A DNA stretch of 64,000 bases from the NCBI RefSeq assembly GCF_900114315.1, contig NZ_FOSQ01000011.1, positions 62,001 through 126,000 on the forward strand, given 5' to 3'. This document shows, piece by piece, positions 56,438 to 63,755 of the stretch. The notes beneath the pieces were generated by a model. The model did not search any database and had not been told where the DNA came from. It worked only from the letters and a program-made list of their open reading frames with translations. The translations under genes and the position numbers were made by a program. Every line of letters starts with the position of its first letter. Positions within the stretch are counted from its first letter, which is position 1. Source of the DNA: Falsiroseomonas stagni DSM 19981 (GTDB lineage: Bacteria; Pseudomonadota; Alphaproteobacteria; Acetobacterales; Acetobacteraceae).

Positions 56438-57408
56438 TCCGGCGTGATCCCGGCGCGGCGGATCACGGGTTCCCAGCGCGCCCGTTCCTCCTGCGTCGCG
56501 CTCGCGGTGGCGGCGGCACCGAGGAAATCGGGCTCGAACCCCCGGTCGCGCAGGCGTTGCGCGAAGGCCGGGTCGGCGACGCTGTCCCGCACCGCGCCCT
56601 CCAGCGCCGCGACCACCGCCGGCGGCGTCGCGGCGGGGGCGTAGAGGCCGTACCAGAGTTCGGCGATGAAGCCCGGCAGCGCCTCCCCGACCGTCGGCAC
56701 CTCCGGCCAGCCCGGCAGGCGGGCGCGGGTGGTGACGGCCAGCGCGCGCATCCGTCCGTCCCGGACCAGCGCCTCCACCGACCCGGCGGAGGTGAAGAGC
56801 ATCTGCACCTCGCCGCTCACCACCGCGGCGATGGCGGGGCCGCCGCCGCGATAGGGCACGCCGGTGATGCGCGTGCCTGCCATCTCGTTGAACAGTTCGA
56901 AGGCCAGATGCTGGCTGGTGCCGGCGCCGGGCACCGCGCAGTTCAGCGCGCCGGGCCTGGCCTTGGCGTCGGCGATCAGGCCGGCGACGTCGCGGGCCGG
57001 AAGATCCTTGTGCACCACCAGCATCATGGGCGTGGAGGCCGGGCGCGCCACCGCGGCAAAATCGCGCCGGCTGTCATAGCCGGGGCTGCGGAACAGCACC
57101 TCGTTCACCGCCAGGCTGCTGCCGGTGAAGAGCACCGCATAGCCATCGGGGGCCGATTGCGCGATGGCGACAGCGGCGATGTTGCCGCCGGCGCCGCCCC
57201 GGTTCTCCACCACCACCGGCTGGCCCAGCGCCTCCTGCATCCGCTGCGCCAGCAGCCGGCCCAGGATGTCCGTGCCGCCCCCCGGCGGGAAGGCGACGAC
57301 CAGGCGCACGGGGCGCGTCGGGAACCTCTCCTGCGCCGAGGCCGGCGCCACGGCCACAGCGAGGCCCGCCGCCAGGGCGCCTCGGCGCGTGATCCAGGTC
57401 TCGGACAT
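56434..57408 (-). CDS. Bug-family tripartite tricarboxylate transporter substrate-binding protein
   Basis: A 324-residue periplasmic binding protein. Signal region TRRGALAAGLAVAVAPASAQ. Family motifs RPVRLVVAFPPGGGTDILGRLLA, VENRGGAGGNIA, PDGYAVLF, GVPYRGGGPAIAAVVSGEVQM and LAVTTRARLPGWPEVPTVGE. GGAGGAAG lies before the ATG. Ligand unknown; no TctAB nearby. Operonic with the MOSC gene and divergent from the Rrf2 gene. Confidence 0.9.
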   Translation of the reverse strand: MSETWITRRGALAAGLAVAVAPASAQERFPTRPVRLVVAFPPGGGTDILGRLLAQRMQEALGQPVVVENRGGAGGNIAAVAIAQSAPDGYAVLFTGSSLAVNEVLFRSPGYDSRRDFAAVARPASTPMMLVVHKDLPARDVAGLIADAKARPGALNCAVPGAGTSQHLAFELFNEMAGTRITGVPYRGGGPAIAAVVSGEVQMLFTSAGSVEALVRDGRMRALAVTTRARLPGWPEVPTVGEALPGFIAELWYGLYAPAATPPAVVAALEGAVRDSVADPAFAQRLRDRGFEPDFLGAAATASATQEERARWEPVIRRAGITPE

Positions 57409-57492
57409 GATTCTTCCTCCCCATGGCCGATTTCGGAGCATGAACCCGCCCTTGGGCTTGGCCGCGCCCGGGGTGGCATCGTATGAGAAGAC

Positions 57493-58008
57493 ATGCTGAC
57501 GCAGAAGGCCAAGTACGGTCTGAAGGCGCTGTCCGTGCTGGCGGAAGCCGGCGCGGCCGCCCCGTCCCGCCGCGCCACCATGCCCATCCATGAAATCGCG
57601 GAGCGTGCCCGCGCGCCGCGGAAATTCCTGGAGGCCATCCTGCTCGACCTGCGGCGGCACGGCTTCGTGGACAGCCTGCGCGGCAAGTCCGGCGGCTATG
57701 CGCTGGCGCGCCCCGCCACGCAGATCGCGCTGTCCGACCTGATCCGCGCCATCGACGGGCCGCTCGCCCCCATCCCCTGCGCCAGCCTGACGGCCTACCG
57801 CCCCTGCATCGATTGCGTGGAACCCGCGGATTGCGCCATCCGCCGCGTGATGCGCCAGGTCCGCGACGCGACGGCGGAGATCCTGGACGGCACCATGCTG
57901 GCCGACATCGCCGCGCCTGCCCCGCGCCCGGCCATCACCGCCCTGCTGGACGTGGTCGCCGAAAGGGCATGCCAAAAGGACTTGATAGAATTCCCATCAT
58001 CCCGATAG
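57493..58008 (+). CDS. Rrf2-family transcriptional regulator with cysteine cluster
   Basis: A 171-residue winged-helix regulator. The HTH covers TQKAKYGLKALSVLAE through IHEIAERARAPRKFLEAILLDLRRHGFV, then SLRGKSGGYALARP. Cysteines 96, 105, 108 and 114 (CASLTAYRPCIDCVEPADC) form a cluster that could hold an Fe-S centre or sense thiols, as in IscR and CymR relatives. It lies directly before the sulfate-uptake operon and probably controls it. Confidence 0.9.
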   Translation: MLTQKAKYGLKALSVLAEAGAAAPSRRATMPIHEIAERARAPRKFLEAILLDLRRHGFVDSLRGKSGGYALARPATQIALSDLIRAIDGPLAPIPCASLTAYRPCIDCVEPADCAIRRVMRQVRDATAEILDGTMLADIAAPAPRPAITALLDVVAERACQKDLIEFPSSR

Positions 58009-58015
58009 GATTTCG
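57978..58015 (+). promoter_or_regulatory. possible promoter/Rrf2 site before the sulfate operon
   Basis: An AT-richer patch overlapping the end of the Rrf2 gene. TTGATA at about 57981 and GATAGG at about 58003 are spaced as a -35/-10 pair could be. The word GATAG occurs twice (GATAGAATT and GATAGGATTT), offering a regulator site. Only pattern-level support. Confidence 0.3.
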
Positions 58016-58059
58016 GCGACCCCGGTGATCCCGGGCCACCGACCCTGACGGAGGATGCC

Positions 58060-58131
58060 GTGCCCCTGCTGCCCGCACCCCCCTGTCGGCCTTGTTGTCG
58101 CCGCGCCGAGCCCCTGGCCCGCGTGCCCTGA
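58060..58131 (+). CDS. 23-codon cysteine-rich leader peptide (attenuator candidate)
   Basis: A short ORF with a GTG start and GGAGG five bases upstream, encoding MPLLPAPPCRPCCRRAEPLA then RVP and stop. Cys9, Cys12 and Cys13 are all TGT codons. The neighbouring genes use TGC almost always (12 of 12 in the iron-sulfur subunit, 5 of 5 in the Rrf2 gene). It sits 49 bp before the sulfate-binding-protein ATG. A ribosome slowed at these codons when Cys-tRNA is low could open the operon. The downstream sequence contains GC-rich inverted words (TCGGC/GCCGA, CCGCGCGG). A nearer ATG at 58055 has no room for its ribosome-binding site. Confidence 0.6.
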   Translation: MPLLPAPPCRPCCRRAEPLARVP

Positions 58132-58179
58132 ACCCGCGCCCCGCGCGGATCGACGACATCTCTGACGGAGTGACCCCCG

Positions 58180-59199
58180 ATGCCAAGGAATGGCCTCGCG
58201 CTGCCTCGCCGCGCCCTGCTGGCGGCTGCGCCCTTCATTGCGACCGGCGCCCAGGCGCAGGCGCCCCTCACGCTGCTCAACGTCTCCTACGACCCGACGC
58301 GGGAGCTGTACCGCGACTACAACGCGGTCTTCGCCCGCAACTGGCAGGCCCAGTCGGGCCAGGCGGTGCGCATCAACACCTCCCATGGCGGGTCGGGGCG
58401 GCAGGCGCGCTCCGTCATCGATGGGCTGGCGGCGGATGTGGTGACGCTGGCGCTGGCCTATGATGTGGACGCGATCGCGGAGCGTGGCCTGCTGGCGCGC
58501 GACTGGATCGGCCGCCTGCCGAACAACAGCGCGCCCTACACCAGCACCATCGTCTTCCTGACCCGCAAGGGGAACCCGAAGAACATCCGGGACTGGGGGG
58601 ATCTGCTGAAGCCCGGCGTGTCCATCATCACGCCCAATCCCAAGACCTCCGGCGGCGCGCGCTGGAACTACCTGGCGTTCTGGGCCTGGGCGCTGCGCCA
58701 GCCCGGCGGCAGCGCCGCGACGGCGGAAGAAGCGACGGCGCGGCTGTTCCGCCAGGTGCCGGTGCTGGATACCGGCGCGCGCGGGTCGCTGACCACCTTC
58801 GCACAGCGCGCCCAGGGCGATGTCTTCCTGTCCTGGGAGAACGAGGCCCATCTGGCGCTGGCGGAATTCGGCGCCGACAAATTCGACATCGTCTATCCCC
58901 CCTTCTCCATCCTGGCGGAGCCGAACGTCGCCGTGGTGGACCAGGTGGTGGACCGCCGCGGCACCCGCGCGGTGGCGGAGGCCTATCTGCGCGGCCTCTA
59001 CACCGATGAAGGCCAGGCCATCGCCGCGCGCCACTACTACCGCCCGCGCAACCCGGCCGTGCTGGCCGCGAACGCATCCCGCTTCCCGGCGATCGACCTC
59101 GTCACCATCGACGACGTCTTCGGCGGATGGACGGCGGCGCAGCGCACCCATTTCAACGATGGCGGCGTCTTCGACCGGATCTACCGGCCGGGACGATGA
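58180..59199 (+). CDS. sbp: sulfate ABC transporter substrate-binding protein
   Basis: A 339-residue periplasmic sulfate/thiosulfate-binding protein. Signal ends ATGAQAQ. Sulfate-contact segments are [59 protein letters not shown] and [19 protein letters not shown] precedes the ATG, and the same nonamer stands before the leader ORF. First structural gene of sbp-cysT-cysW-cysA. Confidence 0.95.
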
Positions 59200-60014
59200 G
59201 GGTCAGGGCCATCCCGGGCTTCGGCCTCTCCATCGGCGTCGCGCTGACCTGGGTCTCCCTGATCGTGCTGGTGCCGCTGCTGGCGCTGGCGGTGAAGCCT
59301 TGGGAGTTGGGCGTGGCCGGCGTGATCCGGTCCCTGTCGGAGGATCGGGTCCTGGCCTCGCTCGCGCTCAGCTTCGGCACGGCGGCGCTGGCGGGGCTGG
59401 CCAGCCTGCCGATCGGGCTGCTGCTGGCCTATGCCATCGTGCGGCTGCGCTTTCTGGGGCGGCGCATCCTGGATGGCATGGTGGACCTGCCCTTCGCGCT
59501 GCCGACGGCGGTGGCGGGCATCGCGCTGACGGCGCTCTTCGCCCCGAATGGCTGGCTCGGCGCGCCACTCCAGGCCTGGTTCGGCTGGAAGGTGGCCTTC
59601 ACGCCGGCGGGCATCGTCGTGGCCCTGGTCTTCGTGGCCCTGCCCTTCATCGTGCGAACGGTGGAGCCGGTGCTGCGGGACCTCGGCCGGGATGCGGAGG
59701 AAGCGGCGGCGACGCTCGGCGCCACGCGGCCGCAGGCGCTGGCGCGGGTGGTGCTGCCGGCGCTGGCGCCCGCGCTGGTCTCGGGCTTCGGCCTCGGCTT
59801 CGCGCGCGCGGTCGGGGAATATGGCAGCGTGATCTTCATCGCCGGCAACATGCCGATGGTCAGCGAGATCGCGCCGCTGCTCATCGTCATCCGCCTTGAA
59901 CAATTCGACTATGCCGGCGCCGCGGCGGTGGGCCTCGCCATGCTGCTGCTGGCCTTCGCCGTGCTGCTGGGCCTGTCGCTGGTGCAGCGCGGGCTGCGGC
60001 GGGGCCGGGCATGA
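59196..60014 (+). CDS. cysT: sulfate ABC transporter permease
   Basis: A 272-residue permease with six helices and the EAA loop [23 protein letters not shown] facing the ATPase. [18 protein letters not shown] and [16 protein letters not shown] are CysT/CysU hallmarks. ATGA overlap with sbp. Confidence 0.94.
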
Positions 60015-60841
60015 GCGCGCGTTTCCGCAGCGCGGCGGAGGATGCGCCCTGGGCGCGGGCGCTGCTCGCGCTGGCCGCCGTCACCATCGGCATCCTCATC
60101 CTCGCCCTGCCGCTCGCCGCCGTGTTCACCGAGGCGCTGCGCCGCGGCTGGGGCGTGCTCCGGGCGGCGCTGGCGGAGGAGGACACGATGGCCGCCATCC
60201 GGCTGACGCTGGTGGTCGCCGCCATCGCCGTGCCCATCAACACCATCGGCGGCCTGGCGGCCTGCTGGGCCATCGCGAAGCACGACTTTCCCGGCAGGCG
60301 CCTGCTGGTGGTGCTGGTGGAGCTGCCCTTCAGCGTCTCCCCGGTCATCTCCGGGCTGGTCTTCGTGCTGATCTTCGGCGCGCAGGGATGGCTCGGCCCC
60401 TGGCTGCAGGCGCGGGACGTGCAGATCATCTTCGCCCTGCCGGGCCTGGTGCTGGCGACCATCTTCGTCACCTTCCCCTTCGTCGCCCGCACCGTGCTGC
60501 CGTTGATGCAGGAACAGGGGCGGGAGGAGGAGGAGGCCGCGGCGACGCTCGGCGCTTCCGGCTGGCAGATCTTCCGCCGCGTGACGCTGCCCAACATCCG
60601 CTGGGCGCTGCTGTCCGGCGTGCTTCTCTGCAACGCGCGCGCCATGGGGGAATTCGGCGCGGTCTCCGTCGTTTCAGGCCATGTCAGGGGAATGACCAAC
60701 ACGATGCCGCTGCATGTCGAGATCCTCTACAACGAATACCAGTTCGCCGGCGCCTTCGCGGTGGCGGCCCTGCTGGCGCTGCTGGGCCTGGTGACGCTGG
60801 CCGCCAAGACGGTGCTGGAACGACGGGGCCGCCGCGCGTGA
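60011..60841 (+). CDS. cysW: sulfate ABC transporter permease
   Basis: A 276-residue second permease. EAA loop [44 protein letters not shown] and ARAMGEFGAVSVVSGHVRGMTNTMP, split over a turn, are CysW hallmarks. ATGA overlap with cysT and GTGA with cysA. Confidence 0.94.
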   Translation: MSARFRSAAEDAPWARALLALAAVTIGILILALPLAAVFTEALRRGWGVLRAALAEEDTMAAIRLTLVVAAIAVPINTIGGLAACWAIAKHDFPGRRLLVVLVELPFSVSPVISGLVFVLIFGAQGWLGPWLQARDVQIIFALPGLVLATIFVTFPFVARTVLPLMQEQGREEEEAAATLGASGWQIFRRVTLPNIRWALLSGVLLCNARAMGEFGAVSVVSGHVRGMTNTMPLHVEILYNEYQFAGAFAVAALLALLGLVTLAAKTVLERRGRRA

Positions 60842-61866
60842 CGGTGGAGGCCGAGCGAATCACCCGCCGCTTCGGCGATGCCGCGGCGCTGGATGGCGTG
60901 GACCTGGCGGTGCGGGAGGGGGAGCTGGTGGCGCTCCTCGGCCCCTCCGGTTCCGGCAAGACCACGCTGCTGCGCGTCATCGCGGGGCTGGAGGGCACGG
61001 ATGCCGGCCGGCTTCGCATCGCGGGCCAGGACATGGCGGGCGTCCCGGCGCGGGAGCGCGGCATCGGCGTGGTCTTCCAGCACTACGCCCTGTTCCGCCA
61101 CATGAAGGTCGCGGACAACATCGCCTTCGGGCTCGATGTCCGCCCCCGCGCCACGCGCCCCGATCGCGCCGCCATCGCCGATCGCGTCGCCGCGCTGCTC
61201 GACCTGGTGCAGATCCCCGAACTCGCGCAGCGCTACCCCGACCAGCTCTCCGGCGGCCAGCGGCAGCGCGTGGCGCTGGCCCGCGCGCTGGCGATCGAGC
61301 CGCGACTGCTGCTGCTGGACGAACCCTTCGGCGCGCTGGATGCGCTGGTGCGGCGCGACGTGCGGCGCTGGGTGCGGGGCCTGCAGGAACGGCTCGGCAT
61401 CACGACCATCCTGGTGACGCATGACCAGGAGGAAGCGATGGAGATGGCGGACCGCGTGGCGGTGATGGAACGCGGCCGCATCGTGCAGTTCGATGCGCCG
61501 GCCGCCCTGCTGGAACACCCTGCCACGCCCTTCGTCGCCGGCTTCATCGGCGATGCCGCGCAGCTGCCCTGCCGGATCGCCGGCGGGGTCGCGCATTTCG
61601 ACCCGCTGCCCATTGCCCCCCTGCCGGTATCCCTGGCCGACGGCCCCGGCACCGCCTTCCTGCGCCCCGCGGAACTGCTGGCGGAACCCGGCGGCAGCGC
61701 CGTGGTGCGCCTGCTGCGGCCGCAGGGCGGAGGCGAGCTTCACCTGGTGGTGGAGGCCGCCGGGCAGGTGCTGGATGCCCGCGCCGCGCCGGGCACGCGC
61801 CTGGCGCGAGGGGACGCCTGCCATCTGGTGCCGCGCGGCGGGCGGGTGTTCCCGGGCGCCACCTGA
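60838..61866 (+). CDS. cysA: sulfate ABC transporter ATP-binding protein
   Basis: A 342-residue ATPase. GPSGSGKTT (Walker A, about 38-46), FQHYALFRHM (Q loop), QLSGGQRQRVALARAL (signature), LLLDEPFGALD (Walker B) and VTHDQEEAMEMAD (H loop). A C-terminal TOBE-like part starts about 240 (PLPVSLADGPGTAFLRPAELL). GTG start set by GTGA overlap with cysW. It powers sulfate uptake. Confidence 0.95.
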   Translation: MTVEAERITRRFGDAAALDGVDLAVREGELVALLGPSGSGKTTLLRVIAGLEGTDAGRLRIAGQDMAGVPARERGIGVVFQHYALFRHMKVADNIAFGLDVRPRATRPDRAAIADRVAALLDLVQIPELAQRYPDQLSGGQRQRVALARALAIEPRLLLLDEPFGALDALVRRDVRRWVRGLQERLGITTILVTHDQEEAMEMADRVAVMERGRIVQFDAPAALLEHPATPFVAGFIGDAAQLPCRIAGGVAHFDPLPIAPLPVSLADGPGTAFLRPAELLAEPGGSAVVRLLRPQGGGELHLVVEAAGQVLDARAAPGTRLARGDACHLVPRGGRVFPGAT

Positions 61867-62200: not shown

Positions 62201-62399
62201 CGCCGTGCCTCCTGGATCGCGGGGAGGCTAGCGCGGCTTCGCGGCGCGATGCCAGCGCGGCAATGCATGCAATGCGCCCCCATTGCCCAGATCTTAGGCA
62301 CATACTAGGCGCGCCGGCGGGATGCGCCCGCGGAAAGCCGCCAGGGCCGCGCGCGGCATGACGGTTGCAACCGGCGGTGCAACCCAGGGAGCCTCCACC

Positions 62400-63755
62400 A
62401 TGCGCCGACTGACCGCCAATCCGCTCGACCCGAAGACGCGCCTGAACCGCTGCGGCTGCGGCCAGCATGGCAGCGCGATGGAGTGTGCGGGCGCCGCACC
62501 CTCCACCGAGCAGGCGATGGCGGAGGTCGCGGAGAATACGGTGCTGCGCGCAACCTTCCGCCACGGCCCGACGCGGCGCGCGCTGGTGGAACGCTTCGGC
62601 GCAGCGACGGTGCTGGCGGCGCTGGCTTCCGTCTTCCCGCTGGATGCGGCGAAGGAGGCGATGGCACAGCCCGCCGGGCCGCCGGAGAAGCGGGACCTCA
62701 AGGTCGGCTTCATCCCCATCACCTGCGCGACGCCCATCATCATGGCGCATCCCATGGGCTTCTATCAGCGCCACGGGCTGAACGTGGAAGTCATCCGCGC
62801 CGCCGGCTGGGCCGTGATCCGCGACCGCGCCATCGCGCGGGAATTCGACGCCGCCCACATGCTGAGCCCGATGCCGCTGGCGATGTCACTCGGCGTCGGC
62901 GTGGCGCAGCCCATTCCCTTCGCCGTCGCGGCGATCGAGAACGTCAACGGCCAGGCCATCACGCTGGCGACGAAGCACCGGGAGAAGCGGAACCCCCGCG
63001 ACTGGAAGGGATTCCGGTTCGGCGTGCCCTTCGACTTCTCGATGCACAACTACCTGCTGCGCCACTACCTCGCGGAGAACGGCATCGACCCTGATCGCGA
63101 TGTGCAGATCCGCGCGGTGCCGCCGCCGGAGATGGTCGCCAACCTCCGCGCCGACAACATCGATGGGTTCCTGGGCCCGGATCCCTTCAACCAGCGCGCG
63201 GTCTTCGACGGCGTGGGCTTCATCCACCTGCTGACGAAGGAGCTGTGGGACGGCCACCCCTGCTGCGCCTTCGCCGTGCCGCGCGCCATGATCACGGAAA
63301 CGCCCAACACCTTCGCCGCCCTGATGCGCGCGATCGTGGAAGCCACCGCCTATTCCGCGAAGACGGAAAACCGGCGGGAGGTCGCGACCGCGATCAGCGG
63401 TGCCAACTACCTGAATCAGCCGGAGACGGTGGTGAACCAGGTGCTGACCGGCACCTATGCCGACGGCCTCGGCCAGGTGCGCCGCGTGCCGGACCGCATC
63501 GGCTTCGATCCCTTCCCCTGGCATTCCATGGCGATCTGGATGCTGACGCAGATGCGCCGCTGGGGGCAGCTGCGGCAGGATGTGGACTACGCGCAGGTGG
63601 CGAACCAGGTGTTCCTGGCGCTCGATGCCGGCCGCGCGATGCGCGAACTCGGCCTGCCGGTCCCCGCCAGCCCCATGCGGACGGAAACCATCATGGGCCG
63701 CAGCTTCGACCCCGCCAGCCCCGCCGCCTGGACCGAGCGCGCGATCCGCGCCTGA
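62400..63755 (+). CDS. CmpA/NrtA-family ABC transporter substrate-binding protein
   Basis: A 451-residue binding protein for nitrate, nitrite, bicarbonate, cyanate or sulfonates. The mature fold starts KRDLKVGFIPITCATPIIMAHPMGFYQRHGL and contains LSPMPLAMSLGVG, GFRFGVPFDFSMHNYLLR, LRADNIDGFLGPDPFNQRAV and DPFPWHSMAIWMLTQMRRW. Before the Tat-like TRRALVERFG segment is a long N-terminus with CGCGQHGSAMEC (Cys18, Cys20, His23, Cys29), a possible metal site. The ATG at 62400 has GGGAG upstream. Followed by a permease gene. Confidence 0.88.
   Translation: MRRLTANPLDPKTRLNRCGCGQHGSAMECAGAAPSTEQAMAEVAENTVLRATFRHGPTRRALVERFGAATVLAALASVFPLDAAKEAMAQPAGPPEKRDLKVGFIPITCATPIIMAHPMGFYQRHGLNVEVIRAAGWAVIRDRAIAREFDAAHMLSPMPLAMSLGVGVAQPIPFAVAAIENVNGQAITLATKHREKRNPRDWKGFRFGVPFDFSMHNYLLRHYLAENGIDPDRDVQIRAVPPPEMVANLRADNIDGFLGPDPFNQRAVFDGVGFIHLLTKELWDGHPCCAFAVPRAMITETPNTFAALMRAIVEATAYSAKTENRREVATAISGANYLNQPETVVNQVLTGTYADGLGQVRRVPDRIGFDPFPWHSMAIWMLTQMRRWGQLRQDVDYAQVANQVFLALDAGRAMRELGLPVPASPMRTETIMGRSFDPASPAAWTERAIRA

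Follow-up and report, generated by a model that had tools for sequence, protein, structure and literature searches.

A 23-codon reading frame ahead of the sulfate-uptake operon of Falsiroseomonas stagni DSM 19981 probably acts as a cysteine-responsive translational attenuator of that operon, one that is most likely restricted to part of Falsiroseomonas and layered on probable promoter control by an adjacent Rrf2 regulator. In the mechanism that we propose, the transcript would begin about 40 bases ahead of this short translated frame. With ample Cys-tRNA, the ribosome would pass through and leave, and the vacated stretch of TGT codons would pair with CGACGACA..CTGACGG, so that the Shine-Dalgarno sequence of sbp is covered. 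When Cys-tRNA is scarce, the ribosome would wait at TGT codons 12 and 13 and mask this stretch, leaving sbp translatable. Reduced translation of sbp may additionally expose the operon RNA to Rho.

The leader frame and its genomic setting

The frame lies on the forward strand at positions 58060-58131 of the window, meaning the whole stretch of 64,000 nucleotides that was analyzed. It starts with GTG, translates to VPLLPAPPCRPCCRRAEPLARVP followed by a stop, and has Cys codons at positions 9, 12, and 13 of its 23, all of them TGT. Its Shine-Dalgarno GGAGG (58050-58054) is located five bases ahead of the GTG, with GGAGGatgccGTG identical across the four genomes that carry the leader. The initial annotation had described the same frame, ribosome-binding site, and codons, but placed the frame 49 bp from sbp; the sbp ATG is at 58180, and we counted 48 bases between it and the leader stop. 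An alternative ATG start at 58055 (MPCPCCPHPP...) has no spacing to the Shine-Dalgarno and is not conserved, and was rejected. The sequence CTGACGGAG followed by GATGCC is present twice, at the leader start (58045-58059) and at the sbp start (58162-58185), so the leader start may derive from a copied sbp start region.

The genes that follow, all on the forward strand, are sbp, encoding a sulfate-binding protein (58180-59199; NCBIfam NF008022, E 1e-143), cysT and cysW, encoding sulfate permeases (59196-60014; TIGR02139, E 2.7e-99, and 60011-60841; TIGR02140, E 1.1e-114), and cysA, encoding the sulfate ABC ATPase (60838-61866; TIGR00968). The first three matches are above their cut-offs and that of cysA scores 343.7 bits against a cut-off of 342.75, so the claimed sulfate-uptake operon is borne out by NCBIfam as sbp-cysT-cysW-cysA. 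A short distance downstream, an NMT1-like substrate-binding protein (62322-63755; PF13379) likely belongs to another ABC importer.

Directly upstream of the leader is a gene for an Rrf2-family regulator (57493-58008, forward strand; Pfam PF02082, E 2.4e-32), whose best NCBIfam equivalog-type matches, CymR and IscR, are both below cut-off. Four Cys residues are present in the protein (CASLTAYRPCIDCVEPADC), which possibly binds a metal cluster. A putative sigma-70-like promoter, TTGATA-18-TAGGAT (57982-58011, forward strand), overlaps the end of this gene and is kept in three relatives, with 1 match against a mean of 0.0 in shuffled sequences; transcription is predicted to start near 58017-58019, about 40 bases ahead of the leader frame. 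Within the promoter lies TCCCATCATCCCGATAGG (57992-58009, forward strand), a candidate operator of the Rrf2 regulator, which has a single exact copy in the genome; the orthologous sites of G005, G012, and G013 each differ from it by one mismatch. An Rfam search of 57400-59000 returned two matches, both far under gathering scores, and thus no known RNA family.

The frame has the features generally expected of cysteine-responsive uORF attenuators: it is short, its Cys codons are clustered, it has its own ribosome-binding site, and sulfur genes lie downstream. Its codon choice is unusual for this organism. Across 916 predicted genes, of which 49 are in the window and 867 come from 1.2 Mb of contig C22, Cys is encoded by TGC 2717 times and by TGT 208 times out of 2925, or 7.1% TGT, in agreement with the near-exclusive use of TGC noted earlier, and three TGT codons out of three have a probability of about 0.0004 under this bias. 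Retention of these three T's across genomes is by itself unremarkable and not significant, because 15 of 26 comparable T's, those of T-ending two-fold codons in rrf2, sbp, and cysT, are also kept in all four genomes. Upstream of 914 genes from the same sequence we found 102 uORFs led by a Shine-Dalgarno, 3 of which, this leader included, combine three or more Cys with a CC. A Cys-rich frame alone is therefore uncommon, yet too common to prove function.

Conservation within and beyond the genus

Among 15 Falsiroseomonas genomes, eight carry sbp, and the leader is present in four of these (G000, G005, G012, and G013, representing three haplotypes), namely those with sbp identity of at least 94%; the frame is absent from the remaining four. 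The start, the distance to Cys9, and the three TGT codons are common to all four leaders, while the other codons and the stop differ, with the G013 frame ending after 16 codons. In codons 10-11, 3 of 6 bases differ between G000 and G013. All 9 bases of the Cys codons are invariant compared with 19 of 36 other leader positions (Fisher p 0.008, from a test that counts bases as independent, which they are not, and from four genomes with only three haplotypes). This alignment suggests that the Cys codons are conserved beyond background in the four leaders.

Could the frame be a chance passenger in four close relatives, with cysteine acting at the promoter through the Rrf2 regulator? We consider this quite unlikely, but parts of the locus are compatible with it. 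The Rrf2 gene is adjacent, its candidate operator is conserved, and similar sequence, as well as a CGATAGG-like promoter element, is seen ahead of sbp in loci L011 and L208, both of which are without a leader; the 3 qualifying uORFs among 102 also demonstrate that chance frames do arise. Against it, the Cys codons of G000 and G005 are fixed beside codons 2-8, in which 11 of 21 bases have changed, and a switch calibrated against controls is predicted in all four leaders, as described below.

No leader core was found outside these four genomes, either in 188 distinct sbp upstream regions pooled or in 20 more. The component scans covered 31 loci of 30 genomes, 80 loci from named genomes (the top 80 among 570 relatives), and 22 family loci; the regions included all but 8 of 63 family places (G191, G235, G281, G312, G341, G363, G383, and G394 being the exceptions) and, in one of the scans, all but two second copies. 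The check suggested for the leader, a CRPCC core shared by related Acetobacteraceae, fails outside the four Falsiroseomonas genomes. Within the 15 genus genomes scanned, the exact core occurs once each in G000, G005, and G012. Matches with one mismatch occur in 15 of 15, at numbers near those of a reversed-pattern control in many genomes and above it in some, and no second copy was found beyond such near matches at chance-like numbers. Upstream regions of cysD and cysK in the genus (42 loci, 1500 bases each) gave five matches to a loose Cys criterion, none of them leader-like: four are on the opposite strand and include an identical pair, and the fifth sits at the edge of L391, a long way upstream. 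At this edge of the cysK locus, a Shine-Dalgarno-led frame at 73-126, MPCSAWRTCCPSRCCRR, lies about 1.4 kb upstream of cysK and is probably within another gene.

Pairing with the sbp ribosome-binding site and a predicted switch

In the minimum-energy fold, a 5' arm that holds the three Cys codons (58083-58100, forward strand), made up of CTGTCGG (58083-58089) and TGTTGTCG (58093-58100), is predicted to pair with a 3' arm (58151-58168, forward strand) composed of CGACGACA (58151-58158) and CTGACGG (58162-58168). The 3' arm extends into GGAG (58167-58170), the sbp Shine-Dalgarno, which is covered. Between the arms and after the leader stop is a small G+C hairpin, CCGCGC-CCC-GCGCGG (58134-58148, forward strand), and L005, the G013 locus, is predicted to form a hairpin of different sequence in this position. 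The upstream copy of CTGACGGAG, at the leader start (58045-58059), is another possible partner of the Cys arm. With the pairing register fixed, the four genomes retain 62 of 64 pair cells, versus 25-61% for slid versions. In G013 the outer helix shifts to UCCGUC/GACGGA, with the sbp Shine-Dalgarno still covered. In all four genomes, each wobble U of the three TGT codons is predicted to pair with an A in the sbp leader, with probabilities of 0.97-1.0 in G000, G005, and G012 and 0.98 for codons 12 and 13 of G013; at codon 9 of G013 the wobble U is split between two A's, 0.77 for a different A and 0.18. As modeled, part of the uORF pairs with the Shine-Dalgarno of the main gene, the arrangement characteristic of erm-type attenuators.

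Several measures of this structure are ordinary. Compensatory changes were found at 0 of 16 pairs in the four genomes, and the whole-leader fold energy is no better than that of shuffled sequences (z -0.39). The arm duplexes of the four leaders are equaled in strength by 225, 40, 55, and 268 of 452 genes, a comparison that rests on ranks since the mean and standard deviation are meaningless owing to one gene's sentinel value. The sbp Shine-Dalgarno is about as closed as expected for a G+C-rich genome, with 55, 51, 135, and 68 of 300 genes as closed. Swapping arms gave no sign of co-adaptation, because native pairs are not the best in all swaps: the own arm of L005 scores -19.6 versus -22.4 with the L003 arm, and that of L002 -21.4 versus -23.5 with the L003 arm.

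The predicted response of the structure to ribosome position depends on the folding model. We computed the cost of opening the sbp Shine-Dalgarno by ribosome position in a model that lets RNA fold only on the downstream side of the ribosome. With the ribosome moved from codon 1 to Cys12/13, the cost falls from 8.3 to 3.8, 9.5 to 2.8, 8.2 to 2.7, and 8.0 to 4.6 kcal/mol in G000, G005, G012, and G013, so that a stall at Cys12/13 rather than at the start codon would free the site by 3.4-6.7 kcal/mol. The native difference was reached by 1, 0, 0, and 7 of 350 control genes from contig C22 at the same offset and by 2, 1, 0, and 1 of 200 leader shuffles, with the stall codons and folding model having been picked after the fold was seen. 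The drop is robust to footprint edges of 10-17 bases and to 3' ends from +5 to +45. An empty leader has an opening cost of 6.0, 6.2, 5.5, and 6.5 kcal/mol in the downstream-only model, so that the gain of a Cys12/13 stall over the empty leader is 1.9-3.6. In the same model the site is open too with a ribosome at the stop codon in L003 (1.9) and L004 (1.8). When folding is permitted on both sides of the ribosome, the effect is weak: the cost goes from 5.1 to 4.1-4.4 in L002, from 8.4 to 7.2 in L003, and from 5.7 to 5.3 in L004, and the direction is reversed in L005, from 4.6 to 6.2.

The closed state is predicted to depend on the TGT codons. In silico replacement of TGT by TGC reduces the opening cost from 8.3 to 4.3, from 9.5 to 3.7, from 8.3 to 3.8, and from 8.0 to 5.4 kcal/mol in G000, G005, G012, and G013, a loss of 4.1, 5.8, 4.4, and 2.6 kcal/mol, which three random other wobble changes equaled in 0, 0, 0, and 2 of 150 trials. 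Since TGC in place of TGT would remove much of the closed state, pairing within the RNA accounts for the TGT codons better than slow decoding does. TGT and TGC are read by one shared tRNA, which also counts against special stalling at TGT. The initial annotation had inferred that stalling at TGT codons under cysteine scarcity would raise sulfate uptake; pairing with the sbp ribosome-binding site is the better explanation of the choice of TGT.

This dependence raises the question of whether the Cys codons arise simply from the pairing sequence, with the hairpin hiding the sbp ribosome-binding site without any reading of cysteine and serving instead to sense temperature or a protein or to set a basal level. 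The conserved bases of the frame are indeed the pairing arm as well, and a TGTTGTCG arm facing CGACGACA yields Cys-Cys in the leader frame anyway. A hairpin of this sort would not account for the strong Shine-Dalgarno and start, which are conserved outside the arm, nor for G013, where the register of the outer helix moved but Cys9 stayed. We regard it as unlikely. The cysteine attenuator that was proposed initially gains indirect support insofar as the Cys codons are conserved in the genus and the predicted sbp switch exceeds its controls, but not as a feature of wider distribution, given that the core is absent outside the four genomes.

Relation to known leaders and to other Cys-rich frames

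Polycysteine uORF attenuators have been demonstrated in mycobacteria, where they are leaderless according to the title of the report (Canestrari et al. 2020, Mol Microbiol; via PMC13236596 and PMC9094748), and translation attenuation for cysteine genes is mentioned in PMC13236596. The Falsiroseomonas leader resembles these in being a short Cys-rich frame ahead of sulfur-metabolism genes. The mycobacterial uORFs, however, belong to another phylum and contain a long Cys run, while the leader described here has three spaced Cys codons. Its start also does not look leaderless, given GGAGG five bases before the GTG, a putative promoter some 50 bases ahead, and a 5' end that is predicted to lie about 40 bases ahead. 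Candidate leaders with Cys codons before cys operons have been predicted in Mycobacterium, Propionibacterium, and Bifidobacterium, lack an intrinsic terminator, and have led to the suggestion of Rho (PMC1262725). Our leader shares with these a short frame with Cys codons ahead of cys genes, but the actinobacterial Cys runs are near the stop, whereas here Cys is at 9, 12, and 13 of 23 codons (of 16 in G013), and the sequestering pairing that is part of our prediction does not appear in the covered text of that paper.

Closer in taxonomy is the uORFC-8-2 motif found before cysS in Rhodobacterales, a Cys-codon uORF with an intrinsic terminator for which ribosome stalling has been proposed (PMC8632094). 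Both are from Alphaproteobacteria and have tandem Cys codons in a short frame. The motif differs in its downstream gene, in having tandem Cys at 14-15 with UGC dominant, and in acting by transcription attenuation through an intrinsic terminator; the Falsiroseomonas leader precedes sbp, uses TGT, and has no terminator-like site in 57900-58300. The proposed mechanism resembles that of erm-type translational attenuators, in which a ribosome stalled on the leader frame frees the Shine-Dalgarno of the main gene (PMC8274638 and PMC13236596), except that the signal would be missing Cys-tRNA and not a drug. The initial annotation knew of no such leader in this lineage. We found none in the literature before sbp or in Acetobacteraceae, in a search whose coverage mostly excluded subscription papers, but at the level of the class the claim must be narrowed in light of the leader before cysS.

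Another Cys-rich frame is present between an Rrf2 gene and sbp in G127, a genome from another family of the same class, whose Rrf2 is 51% identical to that of the window. The frame, MTDRFRLFCPPRTVTAACIAPCGTCRCC (L054 2090-2176, on G127:C1), follows GAGGAGG and has directly 3' of it a strong 13-pair G+C hairpin with a CCCCTTTT tail, on which the terminator scanner made no call because it requires five T's. Frame and hairpin together (L054 2090-2240) look like a transcription attenuator for cysteine and, coming from a single genome of that family, offer a lead. In L333 (G675:C3 near 34561), the frame MTQSPARNLLRSLCRRDICCRFF is located ahead of a small gene, itself upstream of sbp, and is followed by CCGGCC-CTCTC-GGCCGG, which immediately adjoins an AGGAG site, making it a possible further Cys leader. 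Its RDICCR core was found in 2 of 76 genomes in the order of G675, with the second match (L365) within a coding-like stretch beside transporter sequence.

The G127 hairpin is a point in favor of a Falsiroseomonas leader that likewise acts on transcription, through Rho or otherwise, with stalling at Cys codons deciding whether RNA polymerase goes on, as was first proposed for mycobacterial cys leaders. The lack of an intrinsic terminator in 57900-58300 would match the actinobacterial leaders for which Rho was suggested. Yet the pairing extends to the sbp Shine-Dalgarno, where the predicted switch acts, and just 48 bases separate the leader stop from the sbp start, and we therefore think it very unlikely that the primary decision is made by RNA polymerase. 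Combining these loci with the translational attenuator that we favor leads to a broader proposal, which we put forward tentatively and as a whole. In it, the TGT codons would be doubly used, sensing Cys-tRNA while their wobble U's form an anti-Shine-Dalgarno that silences sbp, such that the synonymous choice is itself the switch. Cys-codon leaders would in addition have arisen more than once at the Rrf2-sbp junction in Alphaproteobacteria, as translational devices in Falsiroseomonas and with transcription termination in the G127 lineage.

If the attenuator reading is correct, sulfate import in Acetobacteraceae would be subject to a cysteine-sensing leader stacked on a likely Rrf2 repressor. 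It would also provide a clean case in which a synonymous codon choice, TGT versus TGC, is explained by an anti-Shine-Dalgarno role, with the prediction that TGC versions of the leader would be constitutively open. These observations suggest that leader peptides ahead of sulfur genes are under-annotated in Alphaproteobacteria.
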